From: Flavobacteriales bacterium
GTDB taxonomy: Bacteria; Bacteroidota; Bacteroidia; Flavobacteriales_D; Sanyastnellaceae
Direction: 5' to 3'
NCBI GenBank assembly: GCA_947462725.1
Contig: CANHPZ010000005.1
Coordinates: forward strand, 1 to 40,672
Length of the DNA: 40,672 nt
Numbering within the stretch: the first letter of the stretch is position 1; the number at the start of each line of letters is the position of its first letter. The translations under genes and the position numbers were made by a program. Below, one piece after another: positions 78 through 27,456 of the stretch. The notes under the pieces were generated by a model. That model saw only the letters and a list, made by a program, of their open reading frames with translations, searched no databases and was not told the DNA's origin.

Positions 78-131
78 TAGGATTGTAGGGGCATCCCTAT
101 AATCCTATAATCCTGTTATCCTACAACCCTA
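78..131. repeat. Short-word degenerate repeat with inverted arms (TAGGATTGTAGG family), starting at the stop codon of the 129..500 gene
   Basis: Plus: TAGGATTGTAGGGG at 78; minus from 131: TAGGGTTGTAGGATAACAGGATTATAGGATTATAGGG. Confidence 0.7.
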
Positions 132-500
132 GGAAAAATACCGGACAATGGCTTTGCGCACCAACAGCTCTTGCTCGACCGGAGCCAGATTAGGCAGCTC
201 GCCATTGCGTTCGAAGTGCGGCCAGCCTTCCTCATCACGACCGATGAAGGTGTAGTAACCATAAGGCATGAGGAGAGAACAAATACCGACGTGCATAAGC
301 TCCACCTTCTGGTCCTTCTTAAACTTCTGATAATCCTGTCCTAATTCTTGTACGCCAATCATGAAAAGAATAGCGGCATAATCCAACTTCTCTCCGTATG
401 CCGCTGAGATGCGACTAACGGTTTCATTCCAAGTCTTTTCAAATACATAATCCATGATAAGTCCAATATTGTTGCGCAAATGTTCCGAAAAATCAGACAA
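129..500 (-). CDS. Conserved hypothetical protein (123 aa)
   Basis: Full ORF with plausible globular composition and no signal peptide. Confidence 0.75.
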   Translation of the reverse strand: MSDFSEHLRNNIGLIMDYVFEKTWNETVSRISAAYGEKLDYAAILFMIGVQELGQDYQKFKKDQKVELMHVGICSLLMPYGYYTFIGRDEEGWPHFERNGELPNLAPVEQELLVRKAIVRYFS

Positions 501-550
501 CCTTTGACGTTGCGTCCGTCTTATTTTTAAGTATATTCGCGCTGCCTAAC

Positions 551-1321
551 ATGTTTCGACTAAATTGTATGATTCAAATTCTTAGAATTGTCTGTCTTGT
601 AACGTTTTCGATGCTCACACAATGTGCTGCAGGACAGGTGCGTCGCGATTCATTAGACTTCCAGCACCGCAAGACTTCAGACATTAATGTAGCACGTTTC
701 GTCAGGGAAATTACCACTATCAATGACAGCTCCTACCAGGTTACAGTAAATTACCTTACAGGTGAATCTTTTATGACAGGTCTTTATCTCGATAAGGATC
801 TGGATGTGGCTCATGGTAATTTCGTTTACTTCTATGCCAACGGATACAAAGAATCGGAGGGCCGATTCAAAAATGGCTACAAAGTAGGCACATGGCAGCG
901 TTGGAATTTCGAAGGAAAACCAAAACCCGACCGCTTCTATCCCGATGAAGATTTCGTAAAAACAAATCGCACATCGAAGCCAGCCAAATTCCCGGGTGGC
1001 ATGGCTGCTCTGCAAGCGTTGGTTACCGACTCTCTTATCTATCCTGAAGAAGCAAAAAACAACAAAATTGAAGGAACCGTCTATGTAACATTTACCATTG
1101 ACGCAACCGGAGAAGTAAGCCAACCGCAAATTACAGACGGCGTTCATCAACTTCTCGACGAGGAGGCATTGCGATTTGTGTCATCGTTACCAACTTGGAT
1201 GCCTGCCGCGAAAAACGGCCTACCGGTTGACTCCAACTACATCATGCCGATAACATTTGATCTTGGTGGAAATGATGAATCCCAAGACTCTTCCGCACCC
1301 AATAAAGGAACATCAAACTAA
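551..1321 (+). CDS. Secreted protein with MORN-like segment and C-terminal TonB domain
   Basis: Signal peptide; GNFVYFYANGYKESEGRFKNGYKVGTWQRWNFEG resembles MORN/YwqK-type repeats; PAKFPGGMAALQALVTDSLIYPEEAKNNKIEGTVYVTFTIDATGEVSQPQI matches the TonB C-terminal pattern. Confidence 0.85.
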   Translation: MFRLNCMIQILRIVCLVTFSMLTQCAAGQVRRDSLDFQHRKTSDINVARFVREITTINDSSYQVTVNYLTGESFMTGLYLDKDLDVAHGNFVYFYANGYKESEGRFKNGYKVGTWQRWNFEGKPKPDRFYPDEDFVKTNRTSKPAKFPGGMAALQALVTDSLIYPEEAKNNKIEGTVYVTFTIDATGEVSQPQITDGVHQLLDEEALRFVSSLPTWMPAAKNGLPVDSNYIMPITFDLGGNDESQDSSAPNKGTSN

Positions 1322-1369
1322 TGGAGTGCCTCCTGCATTAGGACCACTCGACTTGTATTACTCTTGATT

Positions 1370-1408
1370 AAAAAAAGCGTCGCTGTCTTAACCAGGCGGC
1401 GTTTTTTG
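1370..1408 (+). terminator. Rho-independent-type terminator after the TonB-domain gene
   Basis: AAAAAAGCGTCGC-loop-GCGGCGTTTTTT imperfect stem followed by a T tract. Confidence 0.65.
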
Positions 1409-1701
1409 TTTATTGACGAAGGGCCGGCCAAGGGCGGGGGATGAAGTGAGCCCGTGCCTGGATGTTATCTTGAAAATGGTGAAGAGCGATGAGGGGACTC
1501 GGCACTGTCTTTTAGTTTTCCTTAATCAGCATTGAACATCGAATTGGTTTCTCAATTATTGATACAACCATTTAGATTTAAACTAGAAAAGGGAAAAAAG
1601 TCTGCGTTCCTTTCTCCTTTGTGATAAAACTTCTAAATCACAAACGCCCCAGGCACATCAAAAATTTCAATAACCACCGCGCCATTCGTAATCTGTATTC
1701 A

Positions 1702-1733
1702 AGAAAAAGGCTCCCGGTTTCCCAAGAGCCTTT
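1702..1733 (-). terminator. Terminator downstream of tRNA-Pro
   Basis: AAAGGCTC...GAGCCTTT stem; T-rich on the minus strand. Confidence 0.65.
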
Positions 1734-1743
1734 CACAATTTCG

Positions 1744-1816
1744 TCGGGATGACACGACTCGAACGTGCGACCACACGCCCCCCAGACGTGTACTCTACCA
1801 ACTGAGCTACATCCCG
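1744..1816 (-). tRNA. tRNA-Pro (anticodon GGG)
   Basis: Minus strand folds as CGGGATG TA GCTC-AGTTGGTA-GAGT A CACGT-CTGGGGG-GCGTG TGGTC GCACG-TTCGAGT-CGTGT CATCCCG A; 73 nt; no encoded CCA. Confidence 0.92.
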
Positions 1817-1895
1817 ATAAACTTAAAATCGAAGGCCTCTGCCTTCTTCGAGGGCGCGAAAATAACATAGCCAACCGCCTTAGCCAAAAAAAACG

Positions 1896-1944
1896 CCTCG
1901 ACTGCGCTCGGCAACCTTCAACTTTCAACTTTCAACCTTCAACC
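1896..1944. repeat. REP-like word CCTCGACTGCGCTCGGC followed by 7-bp tandem repeat (minus strand GTTGAAR)
   Basis: 1896-1912 matches the 4443-4557 repeat family in reverse complement; 1912-1944 reads CAACCTTCAACTTTCAACTTTCAACCTTCAACC, period 7. Confidence 0.75.
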
Positions 1945-1998
1945 AAACTACGAAGAGCCAGGCTCTGCTGTCCGTTAGAGAGCTGCCAGGGGTGGGGC

Positions 1999-2029
1999 AA
2001 AAAAAAGCCCCCGCAACTGCAGAGGCTTT
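1999..2029 (-). terminator. Probable terminator of the 2050..2445 gene
   Basis: Minus strand GAAAGCCTCTGCAGTTGCGGGGGCTTTTTTTT: partial stem plus T tract. Confidence 0.55.
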
Positions 2030-2049
2030 CAATTATTCTCGGTGATCTT

Positions 2050-2436
2050 TTATTCAATAATCACAGTCTCATCATTGGTCTTCATCTCCTCAATCTTGAT
2101 GATGCCCTCACCGGCTAAAGAACCCTTCGAGGCCTCAATATCCAATACGGCAAAACCAGCCTGACCTTCTTTGTAATAGTCGCTGAAATCGAAACTCACC
2201 TTGCCGGTTCCGTTGGTAACCTGGGTAGTGTCGAATCGCAATTCATTAGTCGGTGGCGGAGTTTCTGATGACACGGCATACAAGCGAACCGATGCGCCGG
2301 GAACGGCTTCACCATCGGCATTCACCACGGAAATGGTTGCAATGGTTTGCTGGTCTTTCTTGCATCCGTTCAATACCGCACCAACACACAACAACAGTGC
2401 TGTTCCGAAAATGAAGTGTACTTTTTTAGTAGTCAT
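2050..2436 (-). CDS. Putative lipoprotein, hypothetical
   Basis: MTTKKVHFIFGTALLLCVGAVLNGCKKD lipobox; start taken at the second Met (ORF opens at 2445); Ig-like/carboxypeptidase-regulatory-like body. Confidence 0.75.
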   Translation of the reverse strand: MTTKKVHFIFGTALLLCVGAVLNGCKKDQQTIATISVVNADGEAVPGASVRLYAVSSETPPPTNELRFDTTQVTNGTGKVSFDFSDYYKEGQAGFAVLDIEASKGSLAGEGIIKIEEMKTNDETVIIE

Positions 2437-2585
2437 AGCACGCAAATTTAATCAAAGCAAAGAAAGTAAAACACATCTATTATCCAACGCTGTTTTATTA
2501 TGATTCTATCACCACCGTGTTCATAATGGATACGCATCCGTTGGAGCTTTTGTGTATTACCTTCGGGCCCTTCATTTCAGAACCC

Positions 2586-3380
2586 ATGAAAAGACTACAC
2601 ATTGCCCTACTGGGTTGCGCTGCATTCACTATTTTCTGCAACGCATCAGGCTGCAAAAGCAAGAGCGAAACGCCTAGCACCGCCGCAACCTCAACGACGA
2701 CTCCCGCAGAGCCTTCCCAACCGGTGGCGGAAACCCCAACCGAAAGCGCCAGTCCGACCAATGGCGCCGGCCCACTGGTAAAAGTGCACACGCGTTTTGG
2801 CGACATGACGGTGATGCTCTACAACGAGACTCCCAAGCACCGCGACAATTTCCTCAAGCTGGTCAATGAAAAATACTATGACAATTTGCTATTCCACCGC
2901 TGCATTCCAGGCTTCATGATTCAAGGCGGTGATCCGCAAAGCCGCGGTGCCGCACAAGGTCAAATGCTTGGTGGCGGAGGCCCTGATTACAAGGTGCCTG
3001 CAGAATTCAACCCCAACCTCATCCATAAGAAAGGCGCACTCTGCGCTGCACGTCAAGGCGATCAGGTAAACCCAAAGAAAGAATCCAGTGGCAGCCAGTT
3101 CTACATCGTGCAAGGCCAACCGCTAACTGACATGCAACTGGGTCAAGTCGAAATGAACATCGGCCGCATGCATCCGGGCTTCAAATACACCGATGCTCAA
3201 AAGCAGCTCTATAAAACAGTTGGCGGAACCGCACAACTCGATATGGAATACACCGTATTCGGTGAGGTTGTAGAAGGCTTTGCGGTAATAGATAGCATCA
3301 ACAGTCAAAAAACCATGCGCGATCGTCCACTCAAGGACATCACGATGACCATGGAAGTGGTTAAAAAATCAGGCAAATAA
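2586..3380 (+). CDS. Cyclophilin-type peptidyl-prolyl cis-trans isomerase, lipoprotein
   Basis: VKVHTRFGDMTVMLYNETPKHRDNFLKLV, FHRCIPGFMIQGGDP and GSQFYIVQG motifs; MKRLHIALLGCAAFTIFCNASGC signal favours the internal start at 2586. Confidence 0.9.
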   Translation: MKRLHIALLGCAAFTIFCNASGCKSKSETPSTAATSTTTPAEPSQPVAETPTESASPTNGAGPLVKVHTRFGDMTVMLYNETPKHRDNFLKLVNEKYYDNLLFHRCIPGFMIQGGDPQSRGAAQGQMLGGGGPDYKVPAEFNPNLIHKKGALCAARQGDQVNPKKESSGSQFYIVQGQPLTDMQLGQVEMNIGRMHPGFKYTDAQKQLYKTVGGTAQLDMEYTVFGEVVEGFAVIDSINSQKTMRDRPLKDITMTMEVVKKSGK

Positions 3381-4405
3381 TGCAAGACCTCATCAACCAA
3401 CACCTGGCTGCCATTGCTGCACATGCAGCCTCAACGCCCGATGAGGTGGAGCAATTCCGCATCAAATACCTCGGACGTAAAGGTATCCTCAACGATTTAT
3501 TCGAAGCGTTCAAAGTAGTTCCGGGCGATCAGAAAAAATTACTCGGACAGGAACTCAACAAGTTGAAAAACGCGGTGCAGGAAAAACTCGATGCCATGCA
3601 AAGCGCATCGTCTGCGAGCACGCGCAACACGGAAGCATTTGACCTCAGTCGGCCCACCGGCACGGTGCCGCTAGGTACTCGCCACCCGCTGGCCATCGTG
3701 CGCCGCGAGATTTTGGACATCTTCTCACGGATGGGTTTCACCGTGGCTGATGGCCCTGAAATCGAAGACGATTGGCATGTATTCTCCGGTCTCAATTTTC
3801 CGCCAGAGCACCCAGCGCGCGATATGCAAGACACGTTCTTCATTCACAAGCCTGAGCAAGAAGGAGAAAAGGAAATGGTGTTGCGTACTCATACGAGCAG
3901 TGTGCAAGTGCGCGCCATGGAAAATCAAAAGCCGCCCATCCGCATTGTGATGCCCGGCCGCGTGTACCGCAACGAAGCCGTGAGCTCACGCGCCCACTGT
4001 CAGTTCCACCAAATCGAAGGATTGTATATCGATGAAGGTGTTTCGTTTGCTGATATGAAGCAAACACTACAATACTTCACACAAGAATTTTTCGGCAAAG
4101 CGAAAATTCGCTTGCGCCCTTCTTACTTCCCATTCACCGAGCCCAGCGCCGAAATGGATGTGTATTGGGGTCTCAATAGCGAAGCCGATTACCGCATCAC
4201 GAAAGGAACGGGCTGGCTCGAAATCATGGGCTGCGGCATGGTGGATCCCGCCGTGCTTAGCGCCAGCGGTATCGACCCCGAACGCTACAGCGGTTTCGCA
4301 TTTGGAATGGGTATAGAACGCATAACTATGCTGCGCTACCAAGTAGACGACCTCCGCATGTTTTTCGAAAACGATGTGAGGTTCTTGCGTCAGTTCCAAG
4401 GCTGA
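3380..4405 (+). CDS. pheS: Phenylalanine--tRNA ligase alpha subunit
   Basis: Full-length class II aaRS with GRVYRNEAVSSRAHCQFHQIEGL and GFAFGMGIERITMLRY; overlaps the upstream stop as TAATG. Confidence 0.97.
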   Translation: MQDLINQHLAAIAAHAASTPDEVEQFRIKYLGRKGILNDLFEAFKVVPGDQKKLLGQELNKLKNAVQEKLDAMQSASSASTRNTEAFDLSRPTGTVPLGTRHPLAIVRREILDIFSRMGFTVADGPEIEDDWHVFSGLNFPPEHPARDMQDTFFIHKPEQEGEKEMVLRTHTSSVQVRAMENQKPPIRIVMPGRVYRNEAVSSRAHCQFHQIEGLYIDEGVSFADMKQTLQYFTQEFFGKAKIRLRPSYFPFTEPSAEMDVYWGLNSEADYRITKGTGWLEIMGCGMVDPAVLSASGIDPERYSGFAFGMGIERITMLRYQVDDLRMFFENDVRFLRQFQG

Positions 4406-4442
4406 CCCCTCAGCCCTCGGCTTCGCTCGGCCACCAGCCGGT

Positions 4443-4557
4443 GCCCGAGCGCAGTCGAGAGCGTTGCCCGAGCGTAGTCGAGCGTGGTGCTCGAGCGCAG
4501 TCGAGCGTGGTGCCCGAGCGCAGTCGAGCGTGGTGCCCGAGCGCAGTCGAGGGCGAG
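4443..4557 (+). repeat. Five tandem copies of a 23-bp repeat, consensus GCCCGAGCGCAGTCGAGCGTGGT
   Basis: Unit starts at 4443, 4466, 4489, 4512 and 4535; a further partial copy follows, and an inverted word CTTCGCTCGG lies just upstream. Confidence 0.92.
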
Positions 4558-4605
4558 CGGAGTCGAAGATGCTTATTGTAAACTTTACAATTTCTCAATT
4601 TCCTG

Positions 4606-4635
4606 ATTGTCGAACACACGTCAGGACTATATTTG
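4606..4635 (+). promoter_or_regulatory. Candidate Bacteroidota-type promoter for pdhA
   Basis: ATTG-N18-TATATTTG, fitting the TAnnTTTG -7 element; ATG 19 nt downstream. Confidence 0.6.
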
Positions 4636-4654
4636 TGACCCTTAGAAAATCACT

Positions 4655-5692: not shown

Positions 5693-5722
5693 TTTTTTTT
5701 AAAACCGCAAGAGAAAAATACT

Positions 5723-6988
5723 ATGGCAGAAATAGTTCGCATGCCCAAGCTTAGTGATACCATGACAGAAGGTACAGTTGCTGCATGGCACAAAAAAGTT
5801 GGCGATAAAGTGAAGACCGGTGACTTGTTAGCCGAAATCGAAACCGACAAAGCCACCATGGAGTTTGAATCATTTCAGGATGGTGTGCTATTGCACATTG
5901 GCGTAGAGAAGGGCCAAACCACCAAGGTGGATTCAATACTCGCCATTTTGGGTAAAGAAGGTGAAGATGTGGCAGCCTTGATTGCTGCCGAAGCCAATGG
6001 TGCTCCAGCCGCGGCGGCGCCTGTTGCCTCGCCTGCTCCCAGTGCTAATCCTGCCCCTGCTTCCGTGGCCGCTCCTATTGCTGTTGCTGTAGCTGCTCCC
6101 GCAGGTGCTCCTGTATCCAACAACAATGGACGTTTGAAAGCGTCCCCTCTAGCCAAGAAAATTGCTGAAGAGAAAGGTATCGATATCGGAAGTGTAGCCG
6201 GTAGCGGCGACGGTGGACGCATTGTGCGTCGTGATGTAGAGAACTTTACGCCTGCTGCAAGCGGCGCAACTCCTACCTATGTGCCTGCTTTTGTTCCTGC
6301 AGGCACCGAGCGCTATACCGAAGAAAACGTTTCGCAAATGCGCAAAACCATTGCGCGTCGATTAGCAGAAAGCAAGTTCACTGCTCCGCACTTCTATCTC
6401 ACGATGGAAATTGACATGGAAAACGCCATGGCTGCGCGCAAAGCAATCAACGATAGCGGCATGGCTAAAGTGTCGTTCAACGATATGGTGGTAAAGGCCT
6501 GCGCTATGGCGCTTCGTCTTAACCCGAAGGTGAATTCATCATGGCGCGGAGAAACTATTCGCTACAACGAACACGTACACATCGGTGTAGCCGTGGCTGT
6601 AGAAGAAGGTCTGCTTGTGCCTGTGGTGCGTTTCGCTAATGAAAAAGGTTTGTCGCAAATTGGCGCTGAGGTTAAATCCTTTGCCGAAAAAGCGAAATCG
6701 AAAAAACTCCAACCATCCGACTGGGAAGGCAACACCTTCACCATTTCGAATCTCGGCATGTTTGGTATAGAAGAGTTCACAGCCATTATCAACCCACCGG
6801 ATGCTTGCATTCTCGCCGTTGGCGGAATCAAAGCTGTGCCTGTAGTAAAGAATGGTGCTGTTGTTCCGGGCAACGTAATGAAAGTAACCTTAAGCTGCGA
6901 TCACCGAGTGGTAGATGGTGCTTCAGGTGCTGCATTCCTCCAAACGCTGAAGTCGTATTTGGAGAATCCGGTGATGATGATTGTTTAG
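5723..6988 (+). CDS. pdhC: Pyruvate dehydrogenase E2, dihydrolipoamide acetyltransferase
   Basis: Single lipoyl domain (ETDKATMEFE), Ala/Pro linker, peripheral subunit-binding domain, catalytic DHRVVDGASGAAFL. Confidence 0.95.
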   Translation: MAEIVRMPKLSDTMTEGTVAAWHKKVGDKVKTGDLLAEIETDKATMEFESFQDGVLLHIGVEKGQTTKVDSILAILGKEGEDVAALIAAEANGAPAAAAPVASPAPSANPAPASVAAPIAVAVAAPAGAPVSNNNGRLKASPLAKKIAEEKGIDIGSVAGSGDGGRIVRRDVENFTPAASGATPTYVPAFVPAGTERYTEENVSQMRKTIARRLAESKFTAPHFYLTMEIDMENAMAARKAINDSGMAKVSFNDMVVKACAMALRLNPKVNSSWRGETIRYNEHVHIGVAVAVEEGLLVPVVRFANEKGLSQIGAEVKSFAEKAKSKKLQPSDWEGNTFTISNLGMFGIEEFTAIINPPDACILAVGGIKAVPVVKNGAVVPGNVMKVTLSCDHRVVDGASGAAFLQTLKSYLENPVMMIV

Positions 6989-7067
6989 GATTGTAGGGGT
7001 TAGGATTGTAGGATTGTAGGGCTGTAACACCATCTATAATCCTACAATCCTAACCCCTCTAATCCTA
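6986..7067. repeat. Stop-to-stop palindrome of 8-bp words (TAGGATTG) between convergent pdhC and dnaJ
   Basis: Arms 6986-7019 and 7034-7067 are 34 nt with 3 mismatches and a 14-nt loop; both arms start with the TAG stop of the flanking gene. Confidence 0.92.
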
Positions 7068-8168
7068 ATTGAACATTTCCTTCACCCGCTGAAAAAAGCT
7101 CTTATCTCTTGAGCCGGGTGCGGGCTTGAAATTGGCTGACTCGCGAAGCTTTTCCAACGCCTTCTTTTCTTCGTCATTGAGCTTTTGTGGTGTCCAAACA
7201 TTGATGTTCACCAGCAAATCGCCCTGACCGTAACCATTCACTTCTTTCAATCCTTTGCCTTTTAAACGCAGGATTTTTCCGCTTTGCGTGCCAGCCTCAA
7301 TCTTCACTTGGGCTTTGCTTTTCACCAAAGGAATTTCCACCGTTGCCCCTAGAGCAGCATCAGCAAAATTGATATAAAGGTCATAGTACAGGTTGATGCC
7401 ATCGCGCTTAAGCTCGGCATGCTCCTCTTCTTCGATTTGCACGAGCAAGTCACCCGGAATTCCGCCAAATGGTCCTGCATTTCCTTTTCCGGCAACGTTG
7501 AGCGTCATTCCCTCGCCTACGCCTGCAGGAATAGTGATTTCAATTAGTTCTTCTTCACGCTTCTGTCCATTTTCATCGGCATCCTTTGGTTTCGACTTCA
7601 CCGATTTCCCAACACCATGGCATTTGGGGCATGTTGAGGTCGTGGCCATTTGACCGAGAATAGTATTTGTAACGCGACGCACCTGCCCTTGCCCATTGCA
7701 CGTGGTGCACGTATCGAAGGTGACTTCCGATGCATTCACCAATTTGAACACTTTAATCTTCTTGGTGCAGCCATTGGCAATATCCTCCAAGTTCAACTTC
7801 ACTTTAATGCGAAGATTCGAACCCTTCACGCGACGCTGACCACCGCCACCACCGCCAAAACCTCCACCAAAAGCACCTCCGAAAATATCTCCGAAGTTGC
7901 TGAAGATGTCATCCATGTTCATGTGTCCACCACCAAATCCGCCTTGCGGACCTGCGTGACCAAACTGATCATATTGAGCGCGCTTTTGAGAATCACTGAG
8001 AACACCATAGGCATCAGCAGCCTCTTTGAATTTCTCTTCCGCAGCTTGATCACCGGGATTCTTATCCGGATGGTATTTCAACGCCATCTGGCGATAGGCC
8101 TTCTTGATCTCTGCTTCAGAAGCGCCTTTGGAAACTCCCAGTATATCGTAATAATCTCTTTTTGCCAT
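7065..8168 (-). CDS. dnaJ: Chaperone protein DnaJ
   Basis: J domain with HPD, Gly/Phe-rich linker, zinc motifs CTTCNGQGQ and [10 protein letters not shown]-terminal substrate-binding domain. Confidence 0.95.
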
Positions 8169-16640: not shown

Positions 16641-17408
16641 ATGGAGAACTCACAACCTTCAGGCAAAGGAACGCGCGACTGGCGCCAGGCCCCCAAAGAG
16701 CCAATCATCATGAGCACCGTCGAAAATCTTCGCGTGCTTTATGAGGATAACCACCTCATCATTATAAACAAGCGCAACTCTGACATCATTCAAAGCGACA
16801 TCAGCGGCGACCCAACACTTTGCGATACTGTTAAAAACTACGTCAGACAGAAATACAACAAGCCCGGACTAGCCTTCATTGGCACTGTGCACCGACTCGA
16901 CCGCCCGGTAAGCGGCATTGTTATCTATGCCAGGACTACAAAAGCCTTGAATCGCCTATCCAACATGTTCAAGTATCGAGAGGTGCAAAAAACATATTGG
17001 GCCGTTGTTAAAGGCACACCCGACCCGGAGGAGGGCACCATCATCAATTACCTATGGAAAGATCAAAAGCTCAATAAAACTTTTGCTTATAAGGATGCCG
17101 GCAACGACCGCAAGGAATCGGAACTTAGTTACAAGGTTGCCGGTATCGGAGAAAACTACACCTTTGTTGAAGTGTATCCCAAAACCGGTCGACATCATCA
17201 GATTCGCGCCACGTTAGCTAGCTTAAATTGCCCCATCAAGGGAGACATTAAATACGGGGCCAAACGCACCAACGACAATGCATCCATCCACCTGCATGCC
17301 CGCAAGATTGAGTTTATGCATCCTGTGAAGAAAACTCCAATTACAGTGGTTGCCCCTCCTCCGGAAGACGCGCTTTGGAATGAGTTCCTGCGTATTTCGT
17401 TTGAATAA
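16641..17408 (+). CDS. RluA-family RNA pseudouridine synthase
   Basis: GTVHRLDRPVSGIVIYARTTKALNRLS catalytic motif; GRHHQIRATLA. Start could alternatively be 16710. Confidence 0.92.
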   Translation: MENSQPSGKGTRDWRQAPKEPIIMSTVENLRVLYEDNHLIIINKRNSDIIQSDISGDPTLCDTVKNYVRQKYNKPGLAFIGTVHRLDRPVSGIVIYARTTKALNRLSNMFKYREVQKTYWAVVKGTPDPEEGTIINYLWKDQKLNKTFAYKDAGNDRKESELSYKVAGIGENYTFVEVYPKTGRHHQIRATLASLNCPIKGDIKYGAKRTNDNASIHLHARKIEFMHPVKKTPITVVAPPPEDALWNEFLRISFE

Positions 17409-17578
17409 GTCCATGCTAGGCTAGGACAGACACTCAATAGAGCTCTACCACTCTTGCCTTGCAAGAGCATCCAAAAGCTTGACTCCATTGGGGCTGTATA
17501 TGATCAAAACATGGAGTTCCAATTAGTCCATGCACGGCCCCTTGTTGAAAAACGATTTCAAAACCATGACTTTATCCT

Positions 17579-17608
17579 TTTGATGCACAAGGGACTTCTT
17601 TAGATTTG
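17579..17608 (+). promoter_or_regulatory. Candidate Bacteroidota-type promoter (TTTG-N18-TAGATTTG)
   Basis: TTTG at 17579-17582, TAGATTTG at 17601-17608, start codon at 17648. Confidence 0.65.
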
Positions 17609-17647
17609 CGCGAAGTATTATTATTTTATAAACACAATTTAAACCGC

Positions 17648-19348
17648 ATGAAAAAGAACAGCTTCTACTTTCTCGCAGCTGTAGTTTGCGCTACCATCGT
17701 TGTGGGATGCGCCAATTTGAAGTCAATGGAGAAGGCTGCCCAAGAAATGGGCATCAAGTCTAATCCAAACCCACTGGAAGTGCATGGCGACACCGTTGCC
17801 CTCACTGTTACCGGCAACTTCCCTCCAAAGTATTTCCCTAAAAAGGCCAGCATCGAGGCTGTACCCGTGCTCGTGCACAATGGAAAAGAGACTCGCTTCA
17901 AATCCACTTACTACCAAGGTGAACAAGCGGTTGGAAATGGCACCACTGTCCCATTCAAAACAGGCAAAAGCTTCACTTATACCGACAGAATTGCCTACAC
18001 TCCAGAAATGGAAAGCAGCAAACTCGAATTGCGCATCCATGGCAAGCAAGGCAGCAAAGAAGCTGACTTCCCTGCTTTGACTATTGGTGAAGGTGTAATC
18101 GCTACTCCATACCTCATGAAAAATGATGACAAGTGCGTTTGGAGCAAAGACAACTTCGTGCGCACGCTGAGCTACACCAACGACAGCACACAAATCAACT
18201 TTGACTACAACTCTTCAACGTTAAAGCCTGCAGAGATCAAGCAAACAGATGTTGTGAACCTGGGCAAGTGGATGCAAAGCGTTGCAACCAACCCTGCATT
18301 GGTTATCAAGAAAATCGAATTCACTTCGTACGCCTCACCTGAAGGTGAAATGTTGCTCAACGACAACCTCGCTAACGAGCGCGCTGAAGCCGGTAAAAAA
18401 GCATTTATGGATTTGGCCAAGAAAATGAAACTGACCAACGCCACTGAAAGCCTCTTCACTCTCACCCCAAAAGGTGAAGACTGGGAAGGTTTCCGTTCAG
18501 CCATGGAAGCTTCAAACATCGAAGACCGCAACATCATCATCAACGTGTTGAAGATGACCAGCGATTTGCAGCAGCGTGAGCAAGAGATTAAGAACATCTC
18601 TAAGACTTACACTGAAATCCAGAAGGACATCTTCCCTAGTCTGCGTCGTTGCCGCGTTTTGGTGAACTACGATTTGCAAGGCTACAGCGATCAAGAACTT
18701 ACTCAAATCGGATCTACCAATCCTTCATCTTTGAAATATGAAGAACTGATGCGTGCAGGTTCACTCATTGATGACTTGAACAAGAAGGCTGCTGTTTACC
18801 AAGCTGCATGTGCTTTGACTGATGCCGACTATCGCGCCTTCAACAACCTGGGTTGCGTTTACTACATGCAGAACAAAATGTCAGATGCCAAGACCAACTG
18901 GAACAAAGCTTATAGCATGAAGAAGTGCGCTGAAACTGCCAACAACATGGGTATCGTTACACGTGTTAGCGGAGATCGCAAAGGTGCTATGACCTATTTC
19001 AACGAAGCAGCAGGTTCTACCGAATCAAGCTACAACAAAGGTCTGATAGATATCCAGAACGGCAATTACAGCGGCGCTGTAAGCAAAATGGGTAGCTACA
19101 AAACTTTCAACTCATCATTGGCCAAGTTGCTCAACAAAGACAACAATACAGCCAAGGCTGATATTGATGCCAGCGGTGATAATTCAGCACTTGCTGATTA
19201 CCTCCGTGCTGTAATTTGCGCTCGCAATAGCGATGGCGCAGGCGTAGGTTCAAACTTGCGTAATGCGGTTCAAAAAGACGCAACACTTGGAGAGAAAGCC
19301 AAGCGCGATTTGGAATTCCGCAATCACAAGGATCAAACGAATTTCTAA
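17648..19348 (+). CDS. Lipoprotein with OmpA-like segment and C-terminal TPR-like region
   Basis: MKKNSFYFLAAVVCATIVVGC lipobox; INFDYNSSTLKPAEI...IEFTSYASPEGEMLLNDNLANERAEAGKKA OmpA-like; helical repeats after residue about 380. Confidence 0.85.
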   Translation: MKKNSFYFLAAVVCATIVVGCANLKSMEKAAQEMGIKSNPNPLEVHGDTVALTVTGNFPPKYFPKKASIEAVPVLVHNGKETRFKSTYYQGEQAVGNGTTVPFKTGKSFTYTDRIAYTPEMESSKLELRIHGKQGSKEADFPALTIGEGVIATPYLMKNDDKCVWSKDNFVRTLSYTNDSTQINFDYNSSTLKPAEIKQTDVVNLGKWMQSVATNPALVIKKIEFTSYASPEGEMLLNDNLANERAEAGKKAFMDLAKKMKLTNATESLFTLTPKGEDWEGFRSAMEASNIEDRNIIINVLKMTSDLQQREQEIKNISKTYTEIQKDIFPSLRRCRVLVNYDLQGYSDQELTQIGSTNPSSLKYEELMRAGSLIDDLNKKAAVYQAACALTDADYRAFNNLGCVYYMQNKMSDAKTNWNKAYSMKKCAETANNMGIVTRVSGDRKGAMTYFNEAAGSTESSYNKGLIDIQNGNYSGAVSKMGSYKTFNSSLAKLLNKDNNTAKADIDASGDNSALADYLRAVICARNSDGAGVGSNLRNAVQKDATLGEKAKRDLEFRNHKDQTNF

Positions 19349-19367: not shown

Positions 19368-19395
19368 AAAACCGCCCACAAGGCGGTTTTTTTTT
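19368..19395 (+). terminator. Rho-independent terminator
   Basis: AAAACCGCC-CACAA-GGCGGTTTT followed by T tract. Confidence 0.88.
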
Positions 19396-19409
19396 GCCCA
19401 TCACACCGG

Positions 19410-19426
19410 CTTCGACTACACTCAGC
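19410..19426. repeat. Single dispersed copy of the CTTCGACTRCRCTCRGC word
   Basis: CTTCGACTACACTCAGC resembles the word in 1896-1912 and the reverse complement of the 4443-4557 units. Confidence 0.5.
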
Positions 19427-19465
19427 ACAAGTGCCTCCTCACACCTTATCCCTTATCTTCGCTCC

Positions 19466-19873
19466 ATGAGTCTAAACGACGCGAATAATCTCTCCGATAG
19501 CACGCTGCTCGGTGCATTGGGTATACAATTCACGCATATCGAACGCGGACACATTGAAGCAACCATGCCCGTAGATCATCGCACCAGGCAACCTTATGGA
19601 TTGCTACATGGCGGTGCCAGCGCTGCTTTAGCCGAAACACTCGGAAGCTATGGATCTCATCTCATGGCATCAGAAAATGGTGGCATAGCAGTAGGGGTTG
19701 AACTAAACATCAATCACGTCAAATCGAAACGCAGCGGTGTGGTTACGGGTATTGCCAAAATTCTGCATCAAGGTCGTTCTATACACATTTGGAATATTGA
19801 TGTTGTGGACGAAGAACAACAGCTCATTGCTTCTAGTCGACTAACCGTAATGGTGAAGGAAAAGAAAGGATGA
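19466..19873 (+). CDS. Hotdog-fold thioesterase (MenI/PaaI-like)
   Basis: RTRQPYGLLHGGASAALAETLGSYGS motif; adjacent to isochorismate synthase. Start set at MSLNDANN. Confidence 0.88.
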   Translation: MSLNDANNLSDSTLLGALGIQFTHIERGHIEATMPVDHRTRQPYGLLHGGASAALAETLGSYGSHLMASENGGIAVGVELNINHVKSKRSGVVTGIAKILHQGRSIHIWNIDVVDEEQQLIASSRLTVMVKEKKG

Positions 19874-20826: not shown

Positions 20827-20860
20827 GAAATCTATTTCCTCGCAAACACTCTAGTCTCTA

Positions 20861-23800
20861 CTACCTCACCATTAGATTGGCGCTATGCATTCCATTCACT
20901 TCCACATGATACATGCCTGCTGACCAATTCGACACATCAAGCATCAATTTACCTTGCACCTGCTGAATTGACTCTACAAGTTCGCCCATGCTGTTATAGA
21001 CATTCGCGCTATGCATGCCGACCGGCAGATTGATAAATACATGATCGTCTGCCGGGTTCGGATACATGCTCAACCTAGATGCGAGCCCCTCGTCTACCCC
21101 ATTAATTGTGATAGATATAGGATCACTCTCCGAAGTGCATCCATAAGCATTGAAGGTGGTCACTACATATGTCCCTGAAACAACAGGAGTAATGCTTTGC
21201 GTTATGAATTCCGAAAGTTCATTGTTGATCTGCCATTGCCAATTGGTTCCATCTGGAGCAACGAGCATGTCGGCAACTACAGTGATTGCATTGCTAGGCG
21301 TTGGGAAAACTTCAACCTGCAGAGTGTCGTAAACATTGCACAACGGATTTGTTCGATTGAGCACGATATCATACACACCCTCTTGCTCTGCAGCAAAGGT
21401 GTATGACAACGTATTCCCCACTAGGTTACCGTCGATATACCACAAGTAGTTTTCCGTGTAATCCAGCTCCGGCCAAACATTCAACATTACCGAAGTGCCT
21501 TGGCAAGTCGAGCCTGATCCGTTCGGAAACGGCATCAAGTCGCAGGAGAAAATAGTATGCGAGTATATGTTGGTCATTACAGGATCGTTCATGTCAAAAT
21601 AAATTGCAGCGCTGTTGTTGATGACCTCAAGCGGCTGTAACAGATCGAATGCACGGATGCGATACACCACCCAACCGTGTGAATTCACCTCATCGTGCAC
21701 GCTATCGGCCAATTGGATGTTGGCGAATACAAACTGCACCATGCCATCGGGAGTTACTATCGTGCTATAGGAATGTGATGCCGCAATTGGATTGAATGTA
21801 TTCAAATCGAGACGCGTGAGATCCAGCTGATCTTCGATACGCACGTTAAACGCAGGTGCATTGCCTGTATTTTGGAATCGAATGCGATATTCAATCTCTT
21901 CACCGGCCATTATAAAATGTTGGTCGCTCCACCCTTCCGGCGTTGCGCTGATGTCATTGGGGTCATAGCTGCATGTTACTGTAGGATTAATTGTCCATGC
22001 ATTGGAGTAAAATGAGCCTCCGTTGCCGTCGGTCAGATTCAAGTCCAAGTTGAACGTGTAACTCTGGCCTGTGGCAGCAGTGCCTGGACCATTGAAGTGG
22101 ACTTCGTAATAATACACCGTGCCGGGAGGTTGGTTGTTGATTGTCCATGTGAGCTCACCAGGGGCCGTATTGATAGGATTCACGACAGTAACACCGTTGC
22201 CCGCCCATGGAGCATTGGTATAAACAAGCGATGGATTATAGGCCATGATGAATGTCCCATTGAGTGGCGTGTTACCGTTGTTGTATATATATATACCCGG
22301 ATTAAATCCGACGGCACAATGAATGGTTGTATTCGCGGAAACACTCATGCCACTTATTTGAGCCATCGCTGCCGTTGAGGGAACAAGTGGAAGGTTCAAT
22401 CCATTACAAGTTGGCAAAGTGAGTTGAATGGCGCCGCCGCTAGGCAATACCCAATAACCATTGGGATCAGAAAAACTAACGGTGTAAGTCGCTTGCGGCA
22501 CATCCGGCAGAGTAAAGTTACCGGAAGCATCGGGATAGATAAGAACGCCAAGCTCATCGATTGAAATCACGCCAATATTGCTCAAGTTGGGTTCGCCAGG
22601 CTGATAGAGTTGTTGAATGCCATCACCATTGACATCATGAAAAATATGTCCATTGATGTCTGCTCCATACACACACGAGCCATTGTCGCAGGTTACCCAC
22701 TGTTGGTAGTTGCACGCGCCGGAATCCATACAACCCGACCATCCGCAAGAGCCATTCGATATCAAAGCCTCTGGGTCATAATTGCATGAGGTATTATCGG
22801 TGCATCCGCAGATAGGCGCTATGGATTCGTTGGTGAGTACAACAAGCGCTTGCAAAGGCACTGCTGTAGTCCATTGGGTATAATACTTAATGTAATACAC
22901 TGTATTGGGCTGAAGAGTAAAAACTGAAGCCAGATCAACACAAGCACCATCGGCGGTCACATTTTGGCAATGCACCAAAGTGGATTGTGAGCACGGCGCT
23001 CCCAAAACTGATTCATATACTTCGAAAGCACTGGGTTGATTATAGTTTGCAGCAGAAGTGTAATAACCACTGAAAAACGAAACATTGGCATGTGTGAAAT
23101 CTCCACTATTGAAAGCATACCAGCCATACTGCATATAATTAATGGCAGCGTTGCAACTTGGTGATTCAAAAGCTAAAGCACATAGGGTATCATTCGTAAG
23201 TACGCTATTCTCTAAGTTCACTGCGTCTTCGCAGATCTCATTGGACGTGCCTGTTGATGCAATTTCGAATGATGTAGATCCACCGCATCCATTCGCATCC
23301 ACTGCAGTAATCACGTAAGTACCTGATACATCGAAGCAATTCAGTGTGCCGGGTGTAAGAACAGATCCATCGCTGATCATATACATATACGGTGCAGTGC
23401 CACCATTTGCCACCACCTGACCGAGGCAATTCGGACTACCACAACTGTTGTTGGCCAGAGATGCTGTTACAACGATTGGCTGCGGTAAATTGAATGACTC
23501 AAGAGATGCAGAGGCGGTTCCTACAGGCACGCCTGCAGCATCAATAGCAATTACTGTTAGTCCAATGGCATTTACAGCATACGCGATCGGCACTATAAAC
23601 TGCGCGAAAGTTGTTCCCGACATAGCCGTATCCTGAATGGTCAGTTCCGGATATGCAACCAAGTTGCCTTGAGCATCACTTGTAAAGGCATTCCATGAAT
23701 AAACGTATTCTACTTGCACGCTGCATCCACCGGTGGCGTAACCTAAAAAGGCGAGCTCAGTATCTGCACAAGTTGGAATGCCCATTTGATTTACAGTAGT

Positions 23801-23875
23801 TGTGAGGTTGCACTGCGCATTGACTTGTAACGCCACGCATAGCGCAGCAAATAGCATTTGAAATGATTTGGTCAT
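20861..23875 (-). CDS. Large T9SS type-A secreted multidomain protein
   Basis: Signal peptide; CTDNTSCNYDPEA...GSC modules; CSYDPNDISATPEG...YRIRFQNTGNAPAFNVRIEDQLD conserved segment; C-terminal LSMYPNPADDHVFINLP sorting domain. Confidence 0.9.
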   Translation of the reverse strand: MTKSFQMLFAALCVALQVNAQCNLTTTVNQMGIPTCADTELAFLGYATGGCSVQVEYVYSWNAFTSDAQGNLVAYPELTIQDTAMSGTTFAQFIVPIAYAVNAIGLTVIAIDAAGVPVGTASASLESFNLPQPIVVTASLANNSCGSPNCLGQVVANGGTAPYMYMISDGSVLTPGTLNCFDVSGTYVITAVDANGCGGSTSFEIASTGTSNEICEDAVNLENSVLTNDTLCALAFESPSCNAAINYMQYGWYAFNSGDFTHANVSFFSGYYTSAANYNQPSAFEVYESVLGAPCSQSTLVHCQNVTADGACVDLASVFTLQPNTVYYIKYYTQWTTAVPLQALVVLTNESIAPICGCTDNTSCNYDPEALISNGSCGWSGCMDSGACNYQQWVTCDNGSCVYGADINGHIFHDVNGDGIQQLYQPGEPNLSNIGVISIDELGVLIYPDASGNFTLPDVPQATYTVSFSDPNGYWVLPSGGAIQLTLPTCNGLNLPLVPSTAAMAQISGMSVSANTTIHCAVGFNPGIYIYNNGNTPLNGTFIMAYNPSLVYTNAPWAGNGVTVVNPINTAPGELTWTINNQPPGTVYYYEVHFNGPGTAATGQSYTFNLDLNLTDGNGGSFYSNAWTINPTVTCSYDPNDISATPEGWSDQHFIMAGEEIEYRIRFQNTGNAPAFNVRIEDQLDLTRLDLNTFNPIAASHSYSTIVTPDGMVQFVFANIQLADSVHDEVNSHGWVVYRIRAFDLLQPLEVINNSAAIYFDMNDPVMTNIYSHTIFSCDLMPFPNGSGSTCQGTSVMLNVWPELDYTENYLWYIDGNLVGNTLSYTFAAEQEGVYDIVLNRTNPLCNVYDTLQVEVFPTPSNAITVVADMLVAPDGTNWQWQINNELSEFITQSITPVVSGTYVVTTFNAYGCTSESDPISITINGVDEGLASRLSMYPNPADDHVFINLPVGMHSANVYNSMGELVESIQQVQGKLMLDVSNWSAGMYHVEVNGMHSANLMVR

Positions 23876-23943
23876 GTTCTAAGGTTTATCAAACGAGTCG
23901 TGAAAGTATGACGGATTTCTAATCCAGGAGGTTGCATAAGTAA

Positions 23944-24024
23944 TTCGTGACGAGTGAGTAGTGACGAGTGACAAATAGGGCATTCATCATTGGTCGCTAA
24001 TCACTACTCACTTGTCTCTATTTA
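23944..24024. repeat. Imperfect palindrome of 7-bp words (GTGACGA/GTGAGTA) between divergent genes, upstream of hppA
   Basis: GTGACGAGTGAGTAGTGACGAGTGAC; perfect 12-bp inverted core AGTGAGTAGTGA at 23953-23964 versus 24001-24012. Confidence 0.85.
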
Positions 24025-24111
24025 TGGTGCCCGATTTTCGCCTATATTCGCGCCCCGAATGTCCTAAAGGCCATTCATTAACCCACGCAAAACCAATTCA
24101 TCACGTCAATA

Positions 24112-26433
24112 ATGGATAATTTGATTTACATCGTTCCGGCCCTAGGAGTATTGGGCTTAATTGTTATGGCCATTAAATCGGCCTGGGTAACCAAACAAGA
24201 TGCGGGTAACGACCGCATGAAGGAAATAGCCGGCCACATAGCCGATGGAGCTATGGCTTTTTTGAAGGCAGAATATAAAATTCTAGCTGTATTCGTAGTT
24301 GTGGCAGGAGCGGCTCTGGGTGTTCTTTCCCAAATGGTAGAAACTTCACATTGGCTCATCGTTGTGGCCTTCGTTATCGGTGCTGTGTTTAGCGCATTGG
24401 CCGGATTTTTCGGTATGCGTATCGCCACCAAAGCCAATGTGCGCACAACAGAAGCAGCGCGCACTTCGCTTTCAAAAGCATTGAAAGTTTCCTTTACAGG
24501 AGGAACAGTAATGGGTCTGGGTGTTGCCGGTTTGGCTGTTCTCGGATTGAGCATGCTCTTCATCCTTTTCTTCTCTTACTTCATGCAAGGCTCATTCGCT
24601 AACGGCGGTGTAGAGGCTATGACTCAAGTGCTGGAGGTACTCGCCGGTTTCTCGGTAGGTGCTGAAAGTATCGCTCTCTTCGCTCGTGTTGGCGGTGGTA
24701 TTTACACAAAGGCTGCCGACGTTGGTGCCGACCTCGTTGGTAAAGTAGAAGCCGGTATTCCTGAAGATGATCCTCGCAACCCCGCTACTATTGCCGATAA
24801 CGTGGGTGATAACGTGGGTGACGTTGCCGGTATGGGTGCCGACTTGTTCGGTTCATACGTGGCAACAGTATTGGCCTCTATGGTTCTCGGTAACTACGTT
24901 ATCCGCGACTTTATGGATGCCAATGACGGTTCATTCGCCTTGATTCCTTTCAATGGTATGGGTCCTATTTTCCTTCCGTTGCTTATTGCAGCTGTAGGTC
25001 TTTTGGCTTCCATCGTTTCTAGCTACTTTGTGCGTGTATCTGACAACGGCAAGTCCAGCATCAATGCTGTGCAAGGCGCTCTTAACTTGGGCAACTGGCT
25101 CTCTATCGGACTTTCGCTTGTAGCATCATATTTCCTCATCAACATGTGCTTGCCTGCTGAAATGAGCATTCAGGTATTCAATGCAGGTGAATACAGCACT
25201 ACCACAACTACTTCAATGAACGTGTTCTTCGCTGTATTGATTGGTATGTTCGTAGGTGCGGCTATTTCTTTCATCACTGAATTCTACACCGGTTTAGGTA
25301 AGAAGCCTGTTATGGGCATCGTTCAAAAATCGGCTACTGGAGCGGCTACAAACATCATCGCCGGTTTGGGTATGGGTATGCTTTCAACAGCTATGCCTGT
25401 GATTCTTTTCGCCGGTGCAATTTGGGGCGCATATGCCCTAGCCGGTTTCTACGGTGTAGGTATCGCCGCTTCAGCTATGATGGCCAACACGGCCATGCAA
25501 TTGGCTATCGACGCTTTCGGCCCTATCGCTGACAACGCCGGTGGTGTTGCTGAAATGAGCGAACTTCCTGCCGACGTGCGCGAAAAGACCGATATCCTCG
25601 ACTCTGTAGGTAACACTACTGCTGCTATTGGTAAAGGTTTCGCTATCGCATCTGCTGCTCTTACTGCACTTGCACTCTTTGCAGCATATGTGACATTCAC
25701 AGGCATCAATGGTATCAACATCTTCGACGCGAAAGTACTTGCTGCCTTGTTCATCGGAGGTATGATTCCGGTGGTGTTCTCTGCACTTGCCATGAACTCG
25801 GTTGGTAAAGCAGCCATGGATATGGTAAACGAAGTGCGTCGCCAATTCCGCGAAATTCCAGGTATCATGGAAGGCACAGGCAAACCTGAATACAGCAAGT
25901 GCGTTGAGATTTCAACCCGCGCTGCATTGCGTGAAATGATGTTGCCAGGTGTTATCACAATTGTATCGCCAATTATCATTGGATTAGTAATGGGCGCTGA
26001 AGCACTCGGAGCATACATGGCCGGTGTTACAGTAAGCGGTGTATTGTGGGCAATCTTCCAAAATAACGCTGGTGGCGCTTGGGACAACGCCAAGAAGTCA
26101 TTCGAAAAAGGAGTTGAAATTGAAGTGAATGGTAAAAAAGAAATCTTCTACAAAAAATCTGAGCCACATAAAGCTGCTGTTGTGGGTGATACTGTTGGTG
26201 ATCCATTCAAAGACACATCTGGTCCTTCGATGAACATCCTCATCAAGCTTACTTGCTTGGTTGGTTTGACACTTGCTCCGCTGTTGGGTGAGAACGCTCA
26301 CGGTAAAAATGACGGCACACATGCACATGGCGAAGCATCGTCTTGCTGCAAAGACAAAAATGCTGAGTCTGCGCATATGGCTTCTGATACAGCAGCTTAC
26401 CACATGTCGTCTGCTGAAACAACTGCACACTAA
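24112..26433 (+). CDS. hppA: Membrane-bound ion-translocating pyrophosphatase
   Basis: DVGADLVGKVEAGIPEDDPRNPATIADNVGDNVGDVAGMGADLFGSY; DSVGNTTAAIGKGFAI; GDTVGDPFKDTSGPSMNILIKL. Confidence 0.97.
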   Translation: MDNLIYIVPALGVLGLIVMAIKSAWVTKQDAGNDRMKEIAGHIADGAMAFLKAEYKILAVFVVVAGAALGVLSQMVETSHWLIVVAFVIGAVFSALAGFFGMRIATKANVRTTEAARTSLSKALKVSFTGGTVMGLGVAGLAVLGLSMLFILFFSYFMQGSFANGGVEAMTQVLEVLAGFSVGAESIALFARVGGGIYTKAADVGADLVGKVEAGIPEDDPRNPATIADNVGDNVGDVAGMGADLFGSYVATVLASMVLGNYVIRDFMDANDGSFALIPFNGMGPIFLPLLIAAVGLLASIVSSYFVRVSDNGKSSINAVQGALNLGNWLSIGLSLVASYFLINMCLPAEMSIQVFNAGEYSTTTTTSMNVFFAVLIGMFVGAAISFITEFYTGLGKKPVMGIVQKSATGAATNIIAGLGMGMLSTAMPVILFAGAIWGAYALAGFYGVGIAASAMMANTAMQLAIDAFGPIADNAGGVAEMSELPADVREKTDILDSVGNTTAAIGKGFAIASAALTALALFAAYVTFTGINGINIFDAKVLAALFIGGMIPVVFSALAMNSVGKAAMDMVNEVRRQFREIPGIMEGTGKPEYSKCVEISTRAALREMMLPGVITIVSPIIIGLVMGAEALGAYMAGVTVSGVLWAIFQNNAGGAWDNAKKSFEKGVEIEVNGKKEIFYKKSEPHKAAVVGDTVGDPFKDTSGPSMNILIKLTCLVGLTLAPLLGENAHGKNDGTHAHGEASSCCKDKNAESAHMASDTAAYHMSSAETTAH

Positions 26434-26448
26434 AAACAAATCGTATAC

Positions 26449-27270
26449 ATGAACACTGTAAAAACCATTCTTTTCTCCGCAAGTGCAGCTATCATTATGG
26501 CTTCATGCGGTGAAAAAACGCCTGAAGGTCCAAAGGCTCTGACGCAATTTGATGCGTGCAGTTGTGCTTCAGTTGAAGACTTGAATAGCCCTGATTACGC
26601 AAAGTGCAAGGAATTGCGCAACGACTCTGTATTCAACGCACAATATCAGCAATGCCGCCTAGCCATTCAAAGTGGCATATCAGACACTTCTAAGGTGAGC
26701 ATCAGCAGTGCTGATAATGCTACCAACCTTAGCGCTGCCGGTGATGGCAACTACATCATTGATGTAGCAACTTCATCTTTGAAATGGAGAGGTGAAAATG
26801 TGGTAGGCAAGAAGCACGAAGGAGCCATCTTAGTGAAGCGCGGAAACATCAGCATTGCAGGTGGCGCTTTAACCGGAGGCGAATTGGTAATCGATATGAA
26901 CACACTCATTAACACTGACCTCAGTGGTGAAGAGAAAGCGAAAATTGAATCTCACTTGAAGAGCGAAGATTTCTTCGGTGTGGCCAAATTCGGTGAAGCT
27001 TCATACACCATCGTTTCAGGTGTGAAGACCAACGCAATTACTTATGATGTAAAAGGAAAACTGACCATCAAAGGAAATACCCACGACCTCAACTGCAAAT
27101 TGGTTGTTGCTCCAAATGGTAATGACATTAACGTTGGCGGTGGATTCATGTTTGATCGCTCAGCGTATGATGTGCGCTACGGCTCTGATAAATTCTTTGA
27201 AAACCTTGGCGACAAAATGATCAAGAACGAAGTGATCATGACCTTGAGCCTTCAAGGGAAGAAGCAGTGA
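26449..27270 (+). CDS. YceI-like domain lipoprotein
   Basis: Lipobox MASCGEK; VDVATSSLKWRGENVVGKKHEGAILVKRGNISI...LVIDMNTL...HLKSEDFFGVAKFGEASYTIVS matches YceI. Confidence 0.88.
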   Translation: MNTVKTILFSASAAIIMASCGEKTPEGPKALTQFDACSCASVEDLNSPDYAKCKELRNDSVFNAQYQQCRLAIQSGISDTSKVSISSADNATNLSAAGDGNYIIDVATSSLKWRGENVVGKKHEGAILVKRGNISIAGGALTGGELVIDMNTLINTDLSGEEKAKIESHLKSEDFFGVAKFGEASYTIVSGVKTNAITYDVKGKLTIKGNTHDLNCKLVVAPNGNDINVGGGFMFDRSAYDVRYGSDKFFENLGDKMIKNEVIMTLSLQGKKQ

Positions 27271-27305
27271 GAACAGTGAAGTAGTGAAATAGTGAAATGG
27301 TGAAG
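27268..27305. repeat. 8-bp word array (GTGAARTA) beginning at the TGA stop of the YceI gene; left arm of an inverted repeat
   Basis: TGAGAACAGTGAAGTAGTGAAATAGTGAAATGGTGAAG; 27283-27304 is a perfect inverted match to 27434-27455. Confidence 0.9.
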
Positions 27306-27331
27306 TCGGAACTTCATAGTCTATAAAAACC

Positions 27332-27380
27332 AAGAGCGGTGATTTCAAAGCTAACAGCCAGAAATCACCGCTCTTATTTT
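27332..27380. terminator. Bidirectional rho-independent terminator between convergent genes
   Basis: Perfect 15-bp stem AAGAGCGGTGATTTC / GAAATCACCGCTCTT with T tract on the right and A tract on the left. Confidence 0.92.
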
Positions 27381-27410
27381 TTAGTGCAGTGTAACAATGA
27401 ACTCATCATT

Positions 27411-27456
27411 CCACCATTTCACTACTTCACTATTTCACCATTTCACTATTTCACTT
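27411..27456. repeat. Right arm of the GTGAAATA array, containing the TGA stop of the kinase gene
   Basis: CCACCATTTCACTACTTCACTATTTCACCATTTCACTATTTCACTT; the stop codon is 27451-27453. Confidence 0.9.

Follow-up and report, generated by a model that had tools for sequence, protein, structure and literature searches.

Tandem arrays of short words lie between the genes of contig CANHPZ010000005.1 from a Flavobacteriales bacterium of the Sanyastnellaceae (assembly GCA_947462725.1). The words differ from one locus to the next, and several arrays begin at the stop codon of an adjacent gene. The question raised by this stretch of 40,672 nucleotides, here called the window, is whether such arrays form one family and which process places them at gene ends. 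An earlier note made from the window had proposed a single family of many words and one style, generated by slippage at stop codons, by a transposase-related activity, or by selection for stops in all frames combined with a hairpin. The single family is supported by a common placement rule and by the enrichment of stop codons at array ends. The arrays are oriented: reading 5' to 3' along the G-rich, C-poor strand leads away from the nearer gene border and into the intergenic DNA, and paired arrays face each other. The explanation considered best, with a rough probability of 0.38, is that these polarised C-poor arrays arise by 3'-end repeat synthesis directed inward from gene borders, with coding sequence as the limit.

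Abundance and location of the arrays

The window corresponds to contig C5 of a 2.53 Mb genome in 238 contigs, and counts were taken from a sample of 1.38 Mb. Genes in 1.34 Mb of stretches beyond the window were called by a simple codon model, after which tandem arrays were sought. Tandem Repeats Finder returned 112 intergenic arrays with periods of 5-10 (61 of period 7 and 29 of period 8), where Markov-3 controls gave 13-23; with a score of at least 40 the counts were 58 and 0. Autocorrelation over the 1.38 Mb gave 38 intergenic arrays of period 7 and 16 of period 8, compared with 0.2 and 0 in the Markov-3 controls, and nothing above noise for periods 5, 6 and 9-12. Arrays typically contain 3-7 units of 7 or 8 bp, and the same excess of both periods was seen in two related species. 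At a threshold of 10, 73 of the 77 arrays were intergenic, leaving coding DNA nearly array-free. The genome-wide scan and the association with convergent junctions that the earlier note had called for thus both gave positive results, with 1.1 arrays per kb in convergent, 0.49 in tandem and 0.17 in divergent intergenic regions. One locus from a metagenome-assembled genome (MAG) of Ignavibacteriae (L219) carries 9-bp arrays (AACTTGATA, TAAGATTTG) alongside 7- and 8-bp arrays, and the range of unit lengths may therefore be lineage-specific.

A second set of loci, mostly outside the genus, came from a pattern search in 84,980 genomes that used a single word as the bait and left out the nearest relatives. 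This set is clustered, with many loci coming from one MAG, and may include a few near relatives; the bait enriches for arrays and not for their position. Some of its loci, from lake-type MAGs, align to the window contig at 74-79% nucleotide identity, which makes a freshwater origin of the genome probable. Five viral contigs also carry the bait word, one of which shares its 6,215-base size and match positions with a Piscirickettsiaceae contig.

Polarity and pairing

Where two arrays on opposite strands lie within 300 bp of each other, the G-rich array comes first, an order that reads identically from either strand. The ratio was 36:0 in the genus, 31:1 among the pattern-found loci and 2:0 in G018, a closed genome from another genus of the family; at more than 300 bp the order was mixed. 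The rule held in 23 of 23 pairs with non-matching words and in pairs without any GGG (38:0), so that the order is enforced neither by pairing of the arms nor by quadruplexes. Quadruplex-capable arrays, with at least four GGG tracts, made up only 12 of 154, and quadruplexes are not the general cause of the arrays or of their polarity. Ordinary hairpins in array-free junctions showed no arm order (72 G-first against 81 C-first).

The 5' end of the G-strand lies at the nearest gene border both at stops (61:8 in the genus, 66:22 at other loci) and at starts (18:5 and 26:8, respectively). Many junctions have a single arm or arms that do not match, with the same polarity. The same word nevertheless occurs in both arms of 19 of 36 pairs, compared with 6.9±2.3 when arms were re-paired within a genome.

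Anchoring at stop codons

For 30 of the 73 arrays a stop codon is no more than 6 bp away, against 11.9±2.2 expected when arrays were placed randomly in their own intergenic regions (2,000 trials, highest value 21). Four arrays are equally close to a start, for which 5.7 are expected. Among the pattern-found loci, 82 of 228 arrays are near a stop (36±3.8 expected). The enrichment anticipated by the earlier note is real, and the random placement that it had named as refuting evidence was not seen. Where the G-strand and the gene read in the same direction, array starts are most frequent between -6 and -1, counted from the end of the stop codon. The actual stop is exactly predicted by the register of the word in 13 of 44 cases (2.2 at random) and, among the pattern-found loci, in 14 of 55 (2.9 at random). 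TAG is used by 28 of the 61 genes next to arrays, compared with 295 of 1,561 others (p=3.5e-6). The register match and the TAG excess together indicate that arrays have often incorporated the stop codon.

It was proposed earlier that the words are selected to place stops in all three frames after genes, an idea favoured by the observation that every word contains TAG or TGA. This observation holds within the window, but across three genomes 43 of 145 arrays lack a stop triplet in the G-strand word (for example GGGCGAA, ACGGATT and TGGAGAA). Distinct words contained stop triplets in 42 of 69 cases, no more than after letter shuffling (41±3); weighted by array, the count was 102 of 145 against 91±5. 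The words contain 6-7% C, and because stop codons contain no C, such C-poor words are naturally rich in stops. Periods of 5, 10 and 11 would likewise put stops in all frames and are not enriched, and the polarity is identical at gene starts, where no stop is needed. Selection for stops in all frames is thus scarcely credible as the cause.

Arrays in the window

All five arrays described in the earlier note were recovered, exactly where it had placed them or shifted by a few bases, and each of the five stop codons it had assigned to them sits in or at an array. Four loci are inverted pairs (78-131, 6986-7067, 23944-24024 and 27268-27456). The hairpin it had suggested is often possible, and the two stems that were folded are both far stronger than shuffled sequences (z about -11). 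Rfam matched only one tRNA in the window, and no known RNA family at the arrays.

One inverted pair lies at the convergent junction of pdhC and dnaJ. The pyruvate dehydrogenase E2 gene pdhC (5723..6988, plus strand, TIGR01349) ends in a TAG at 6986-6988 that is the first TAG of the G-arm (6986..7020, plus strand), composed of TAGGATTG and TAGGGGT words. The mirror C-arm (7034..7067, minus strand) ends at the stop of dnaJ (7065..8168, minus strand, NF008035), whose TAG at 7065-7067 lies inside the array. The order of word variants in this arm mirrors that of the G-arm, with 35 nt at 91% complementarity and a hairpin z of -11.2. The hairpin loop (7022-7036) nearly repeats, in inverted form and with 13 of 15 bases matching, a stretch inside the pdhC coding region roughly 100 bp distant (6912-6926), as fold-back copying would leave, although this could also be chance.

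At the second convergent junction, a YceI-like gene (26449..27270, plus strand) has its TGA stop (27268-27270) within a word of the G-arm, whose GTGAARTR (8 bp) units continue from the stop onward (27268..27305, plus strand). The opposite C-arm (27404..27456, minus strand) reads from the stop of a deoxynucleoside/thymidylate-kinase-like gene (27451..28131, minus strand; TIGR00041 match at E 1.4e-7, below the curated cut-off), and the TGA at 27451-27453 is part of the word. The two arms enclose an ordinary terminator-like hairpin with a T run (27324..27383).

A third inverted pair, of TAGGATTR words (8 bp), spans 78..131, with the G-arm at about 78-90 on the plus strand and the C-arm at about 95-131. 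Its outer end is the TAG stop (129-131) of a gene at 129..500 on the minus strand, which encodes 123 amino acids without an NCBIfam match. At another locus (L080, about 208-391), TAGGATTR arms in a composite order like that of the dnaJ/pdhC arms enclose an inverted repeat of ATTCTG-like words, forming nested elements.

The two remaining arrays lie away from stops, as the earlier note had said. One occupies a divergent junction between two gene starts, with GTGACGA/GTGAGTA words (7 bp) in a G-arm at 23941..23976 (plus strand) and a C-arm at 23989..24024 (minus strand), matched over 36 nt at 78% complementarity. The other is a single GTTGAAR array (7 bp, 1912..1944) with its G-strand on the minus strand, between tRNA-Pro (1743-1816) and the stop of a gene at 2050. 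Immediately before it, at about 1896-1910, is a CTCGACTGCGCTCGG stretch similar to a 23-bp repeat, GGTGCCCGAGCGCAGTCGAGCGT, found in five copies at 4440-4551; others occur in L061 and L075. The repeat at 4440-4551 may resemble the minisatellite-bearing miniature inverted-repeat transposable element (MITE) of Porphyromonas gingivalis (PMC4596501).

Words and their replacement

Comparison of the dnaJ/pdhC junction between species showed that the protein ends are unchanged and the array is kept, while the word differs. Genomes G000 and G007 carry TAGGATTG, G006 carries GTGAAAGG and G005 carries GTGACTA/GTGACGA; in G004 a decayed GTGAAA type is present with different sequence beyond it, and G003 has no array. 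Words are also replaced at the orthologous junctions 229, 589, 756, 781 and 900, and a similar word is retained at 763 and 903.

A single genome uses at least 10 different words, and the overall vocabulary runs to tens of words, each 7 or 8 bp long. Three words that were searched for occur in six or seven of the eight genus genomes, with species-specific copy numbers, and in none of the 32 genomes searched from the rest of the family and order. A vocabulary restricted to the genus was considered and rejected: GTGAARTR, missing from those 32 genomes, is present in Hymenobacter, Prevotella, Ignavibacteria and others, a distribution that is patchy and not private. One searched word turns up again elsewhere in Bacteroidota and in a few further phyla. 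Genome G018 (L190) has very dense 7-bp arrays with its own vocabulary (GGTTGAC, GGTAGAC and GTGGAAT), and one of its arrays drifts base by base from GTGGAAT to TCGTCTA in a single fixed 7-bp register.

These patterns bear on neutral polymerase slippage, the view taken by Mrazek of long simple sequence repeats, in which 7 bp would be a favoured step and position would reflect no more than what selection tolerates. The near absence of arrays from coding DNA fits such a process, and according to what is relayed in PMC4679880, heptamers are the commonest class of long repeats in most surveyed genomes, for which slippage was proposed. Slippage does not predict the strict polarity, which already weakens it, nor matched inverted partners, nor words common to different loci and genera, and it is rather unlikely.

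Chi sites are directional sequences of 5-8 bases, mostly G-rich. The word length, G-richness, direction and border position of the arrays would suit putative guard sites of this kind, where C-poor words facing an intergenic break would halt a nuclease of the RecBCD/AddAB type ahead of the gene. However, one enzyme recognises one site or its near variants, which is difficult to reconcile with the number of words used per genome, and Chi sites are normally scattered in coding DNA and not arrayed. Such a protective role is improbable.

Terminators at array junctions

Canonical terminators are scarce where arrays lie. In the genus they were found at 2 of 15 convergent junctions with arrays and 14 of 36 without, and at 1 of 42 tandem junctions with arrays and 54 of 377 without. 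Outside the genus the corresponding values were 0 of 9 and 4 of 9 for convergent junctions, and 1 of 60 and 13 of 86 for tandem junctions. The depletion is significant with all strata combined (p=1.7e-5). The arrays themselves are not intrinsic terminators of the usual form, as 3 of the 57 genus junctions with arrays had a GC-rich hairpin followed by a T run. They resemble such terminators in having a stem after the stop codon that is often bidirectional between convergent genes, but differ in needing no T run, in the strict order of the arms and in arms built of words.

Given this scarcity, long array stems may act as transcript ends in a secondary role. The main rival to inward synthesis goes further, taking the arrays as selected transcript-end elements, either lineage-specific terminators or hairpins that protect 3' ends, where selection keeps the stem and its position behind stops and slippage both supplies the words and alters them. 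Besides the depletion, the strong folding of the stems and the enrichment in convergent junctions argue for it, as does the report that in Xanthomonas the starts and ends of transcripts are more frequent at repeats able to form quadruplexes (PMC4692102). It leaves unexplained why the G-arm comes first, an order not seen in ordinary terminator hairpins, and why the polarity is the same where a junction has one arm or non-matching arms and where single arrays lie near starts. In addition, an array directly at a stop lies beneath the terminating ribosome, and a canonical terminator already sits between the arms at 27324-27383. Transcript-end selection is a possible but doubtful cause, and may act in addition to inward synthesis.

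Mobile elements

The arrays could also be the ends of mobile elements of MITE type, or of the type formed by repetitive extragenic palindromes (REPs) and their associated tyrosine transposases (RAYTs), inserting at stop codons. A 145-bp element with arrays at both ends is present in two copies (L075:13314-13456 and L075:14279-14513), 93% identical and separated by about 1 kb, each at the stop of a gene unrelated to the other. An adenylate-cyclase-like gene takes its final codons (NDK) and its stop from the array of the second copy. Elsewhere, a Y1-transposase gene (PF01797; C41, L083:131-595) runs into an array of GTGAAATG, which encodes its last residues. Against this, a substantial core beyond the words was common to one pair only among 61 array junctions compared, arms often have differing words, and no clean empty site, of the kind that would reveal a target-site duplication, was found among 153 orthologous junction pairs. 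Transposition through shared, MITE-like cores was rejected, the single pair being a local duplication.

The RAYT/Y1 activity suggested in the earlier note fared no better, because the presence of Y1 does not track the arrays: G003 has one Y1 gene and no detected arrays, and the array-rich G018 has one weak Y1 match only. The real RAYT of the genome, a Y1 transposase flanked by CCCACCATTGAAATGGTGGGC palindromes (C6, L036, about 17150-17900), is unrelated to the word arrays. REPs share with the arrays an intergenic, dispersed, inverted-repeat character, but are single palindromes of conserved sequence. No conserved palindrome tied to a neighbouring Y1 transposase was found at the arrays, and the REP/RAYT class was rejected. 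Taken together, mobile elements are very improbable as the general cause.

Comparison with known heptamer repeats

The view in the earlier note that no named class fits was too strong. In the accounts of Mrazek et al. 2007 given in PMC4679880 and PMC4692102, long simple sequence repeats include a class with units of 5-11 bp in which heptamers dominate and for which slippage was proposed. The arrays have tandem units in this range above chance and lie mainly outside coding DNA, where repeats of that class are concentrated unless their unit is a multiple of three. As far as these accounts go, no polarity or stop-codon rule was attributed to that class, whereas the arrays have both.

A closer counterpart is the class of GGGAATC / GGGGA(C/T)T heptamers of Xanthomonas and Nostoc (Rehm et al. 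2015, PMC4692102), for which stop overlap, polarity and inverted pairs were described. Those repeats are intergenic, with few between divergent genes and 70-75 convergent inverted pairs, and their sites are mostly kept between two species with varying length and sequence. Shared features are the 7-bp units, the intergenic location with few repeats in divergent regions, a G-strand placed close to the 5' neighbouring gene in either orientation of that gene, the overlap of stop codons, the convergent inverted pairs and the retention of sites between species. The GGGAATC repeats have one quadruplex-forming word type per organism, unlike the many, mostly non-quadruplex words found here, and the arrays do not consist of a GGGNATC word with four G tracts. 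Furthermore, the word itself is replaced here at orthologous junctions.

TAACTGA arrays were described in Beggiatoaceae, Cyanobacteria and some Bacteroidetes (MacGregor 2015, PMC4679880). They are likewise intergenic heptamers with a patchy distribution across phyla, for which stops in all frames and some overlap with upstream stops were noted. They consist of one word, in Maribeggiatoa most of them immediately precede start codons, and no inverted-pair rule is described for them in the portion of that work considered; the arrays described here are not start-proximal in this way. TAACTGA was not among the 45 commonest words listed, and a one-base relative (TTACTGA-like) occurs at L081.

The arrays thus represent, in Bacteroidota, an unusually rule-bound and many-worded variant of the heptamer repeats that lie between genes in Xanthomonas and Nostoc. 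Four aspects appear to be new: the rule extends to many words unable to form quadruplexes, the stop is absorbed into the register, ordinary terminators are depleted, and words are replaced at conserved junctions. The search did not extend to subscription papers, where some of these findings may already be reported.

A possible mechanism

The preferred explanation, inward synthesis, is suggested by the polarity from both borders, with the 3' end of the C-poor strand always pointing inward. The 3' ends directed inward from both gene borders would be extended repeatedly, remaking the intergenic DNA, and the extension would slip in steps of 7-8 bases, as could happen where a gap or break recurs and its ends are rejoined on the spot. 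Arrays reach the stop codon, often absorb it into the word and rarely extend further; coding sequence may thus be a hard limit, the surviving arrays being those that end at the stop, and the three spellings of the stop would let a word take over that codon. Fold-back copying of one arm could give two arms that usually have the same word.

A variant of this idea, in which the arrays are scars of healing, is unlikely. In it, a break or gap between genes would be resected to the gene borders, both 3' ends would receive C-poor words of 7-8 bases from a telomere-like activity, and the tails would be joined. Whichever strand is read, joining would leave a G-arm and then a C-arm, and the words of the two sides could sometimes differ.

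Several points weigh against inward synthesis. Neither a reverse transcriptase (PF00078, RVT_1) nor Ku was found in the eight genus genomes, so that no enzyme suggests itself for templated extension of ends or for end joining of the classical kind. The extension step itself is deduced from the geometry of the arrays, and simple slippage within it would not predict a vocabulary common to many loci and distant genomes. Synteny breaks are not in excess at arrays (6/22 against 74/360, p=0.43), although local rejoining would leave none; a link between arrays and rearrangement breakpoints was rejected on the same count.

Significance

Records of heptamer arrays go back to 2007 or earlier, and no cause has been agreed. 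A polarity known for one quadruplex word now holds, nearly without exception, for many non-quadruplex words in several lineages, and the quadruplex explanation is therefore not general. The questions that follow are which process writes C-poor words of 7-8 bases inward from gene ends, and whether the resulting stems are used as transcript ends. The exchange of words at orthologous junctions indicates that in these bacteria the site and the geometry of an array are stable, and its sequence is replaceable.

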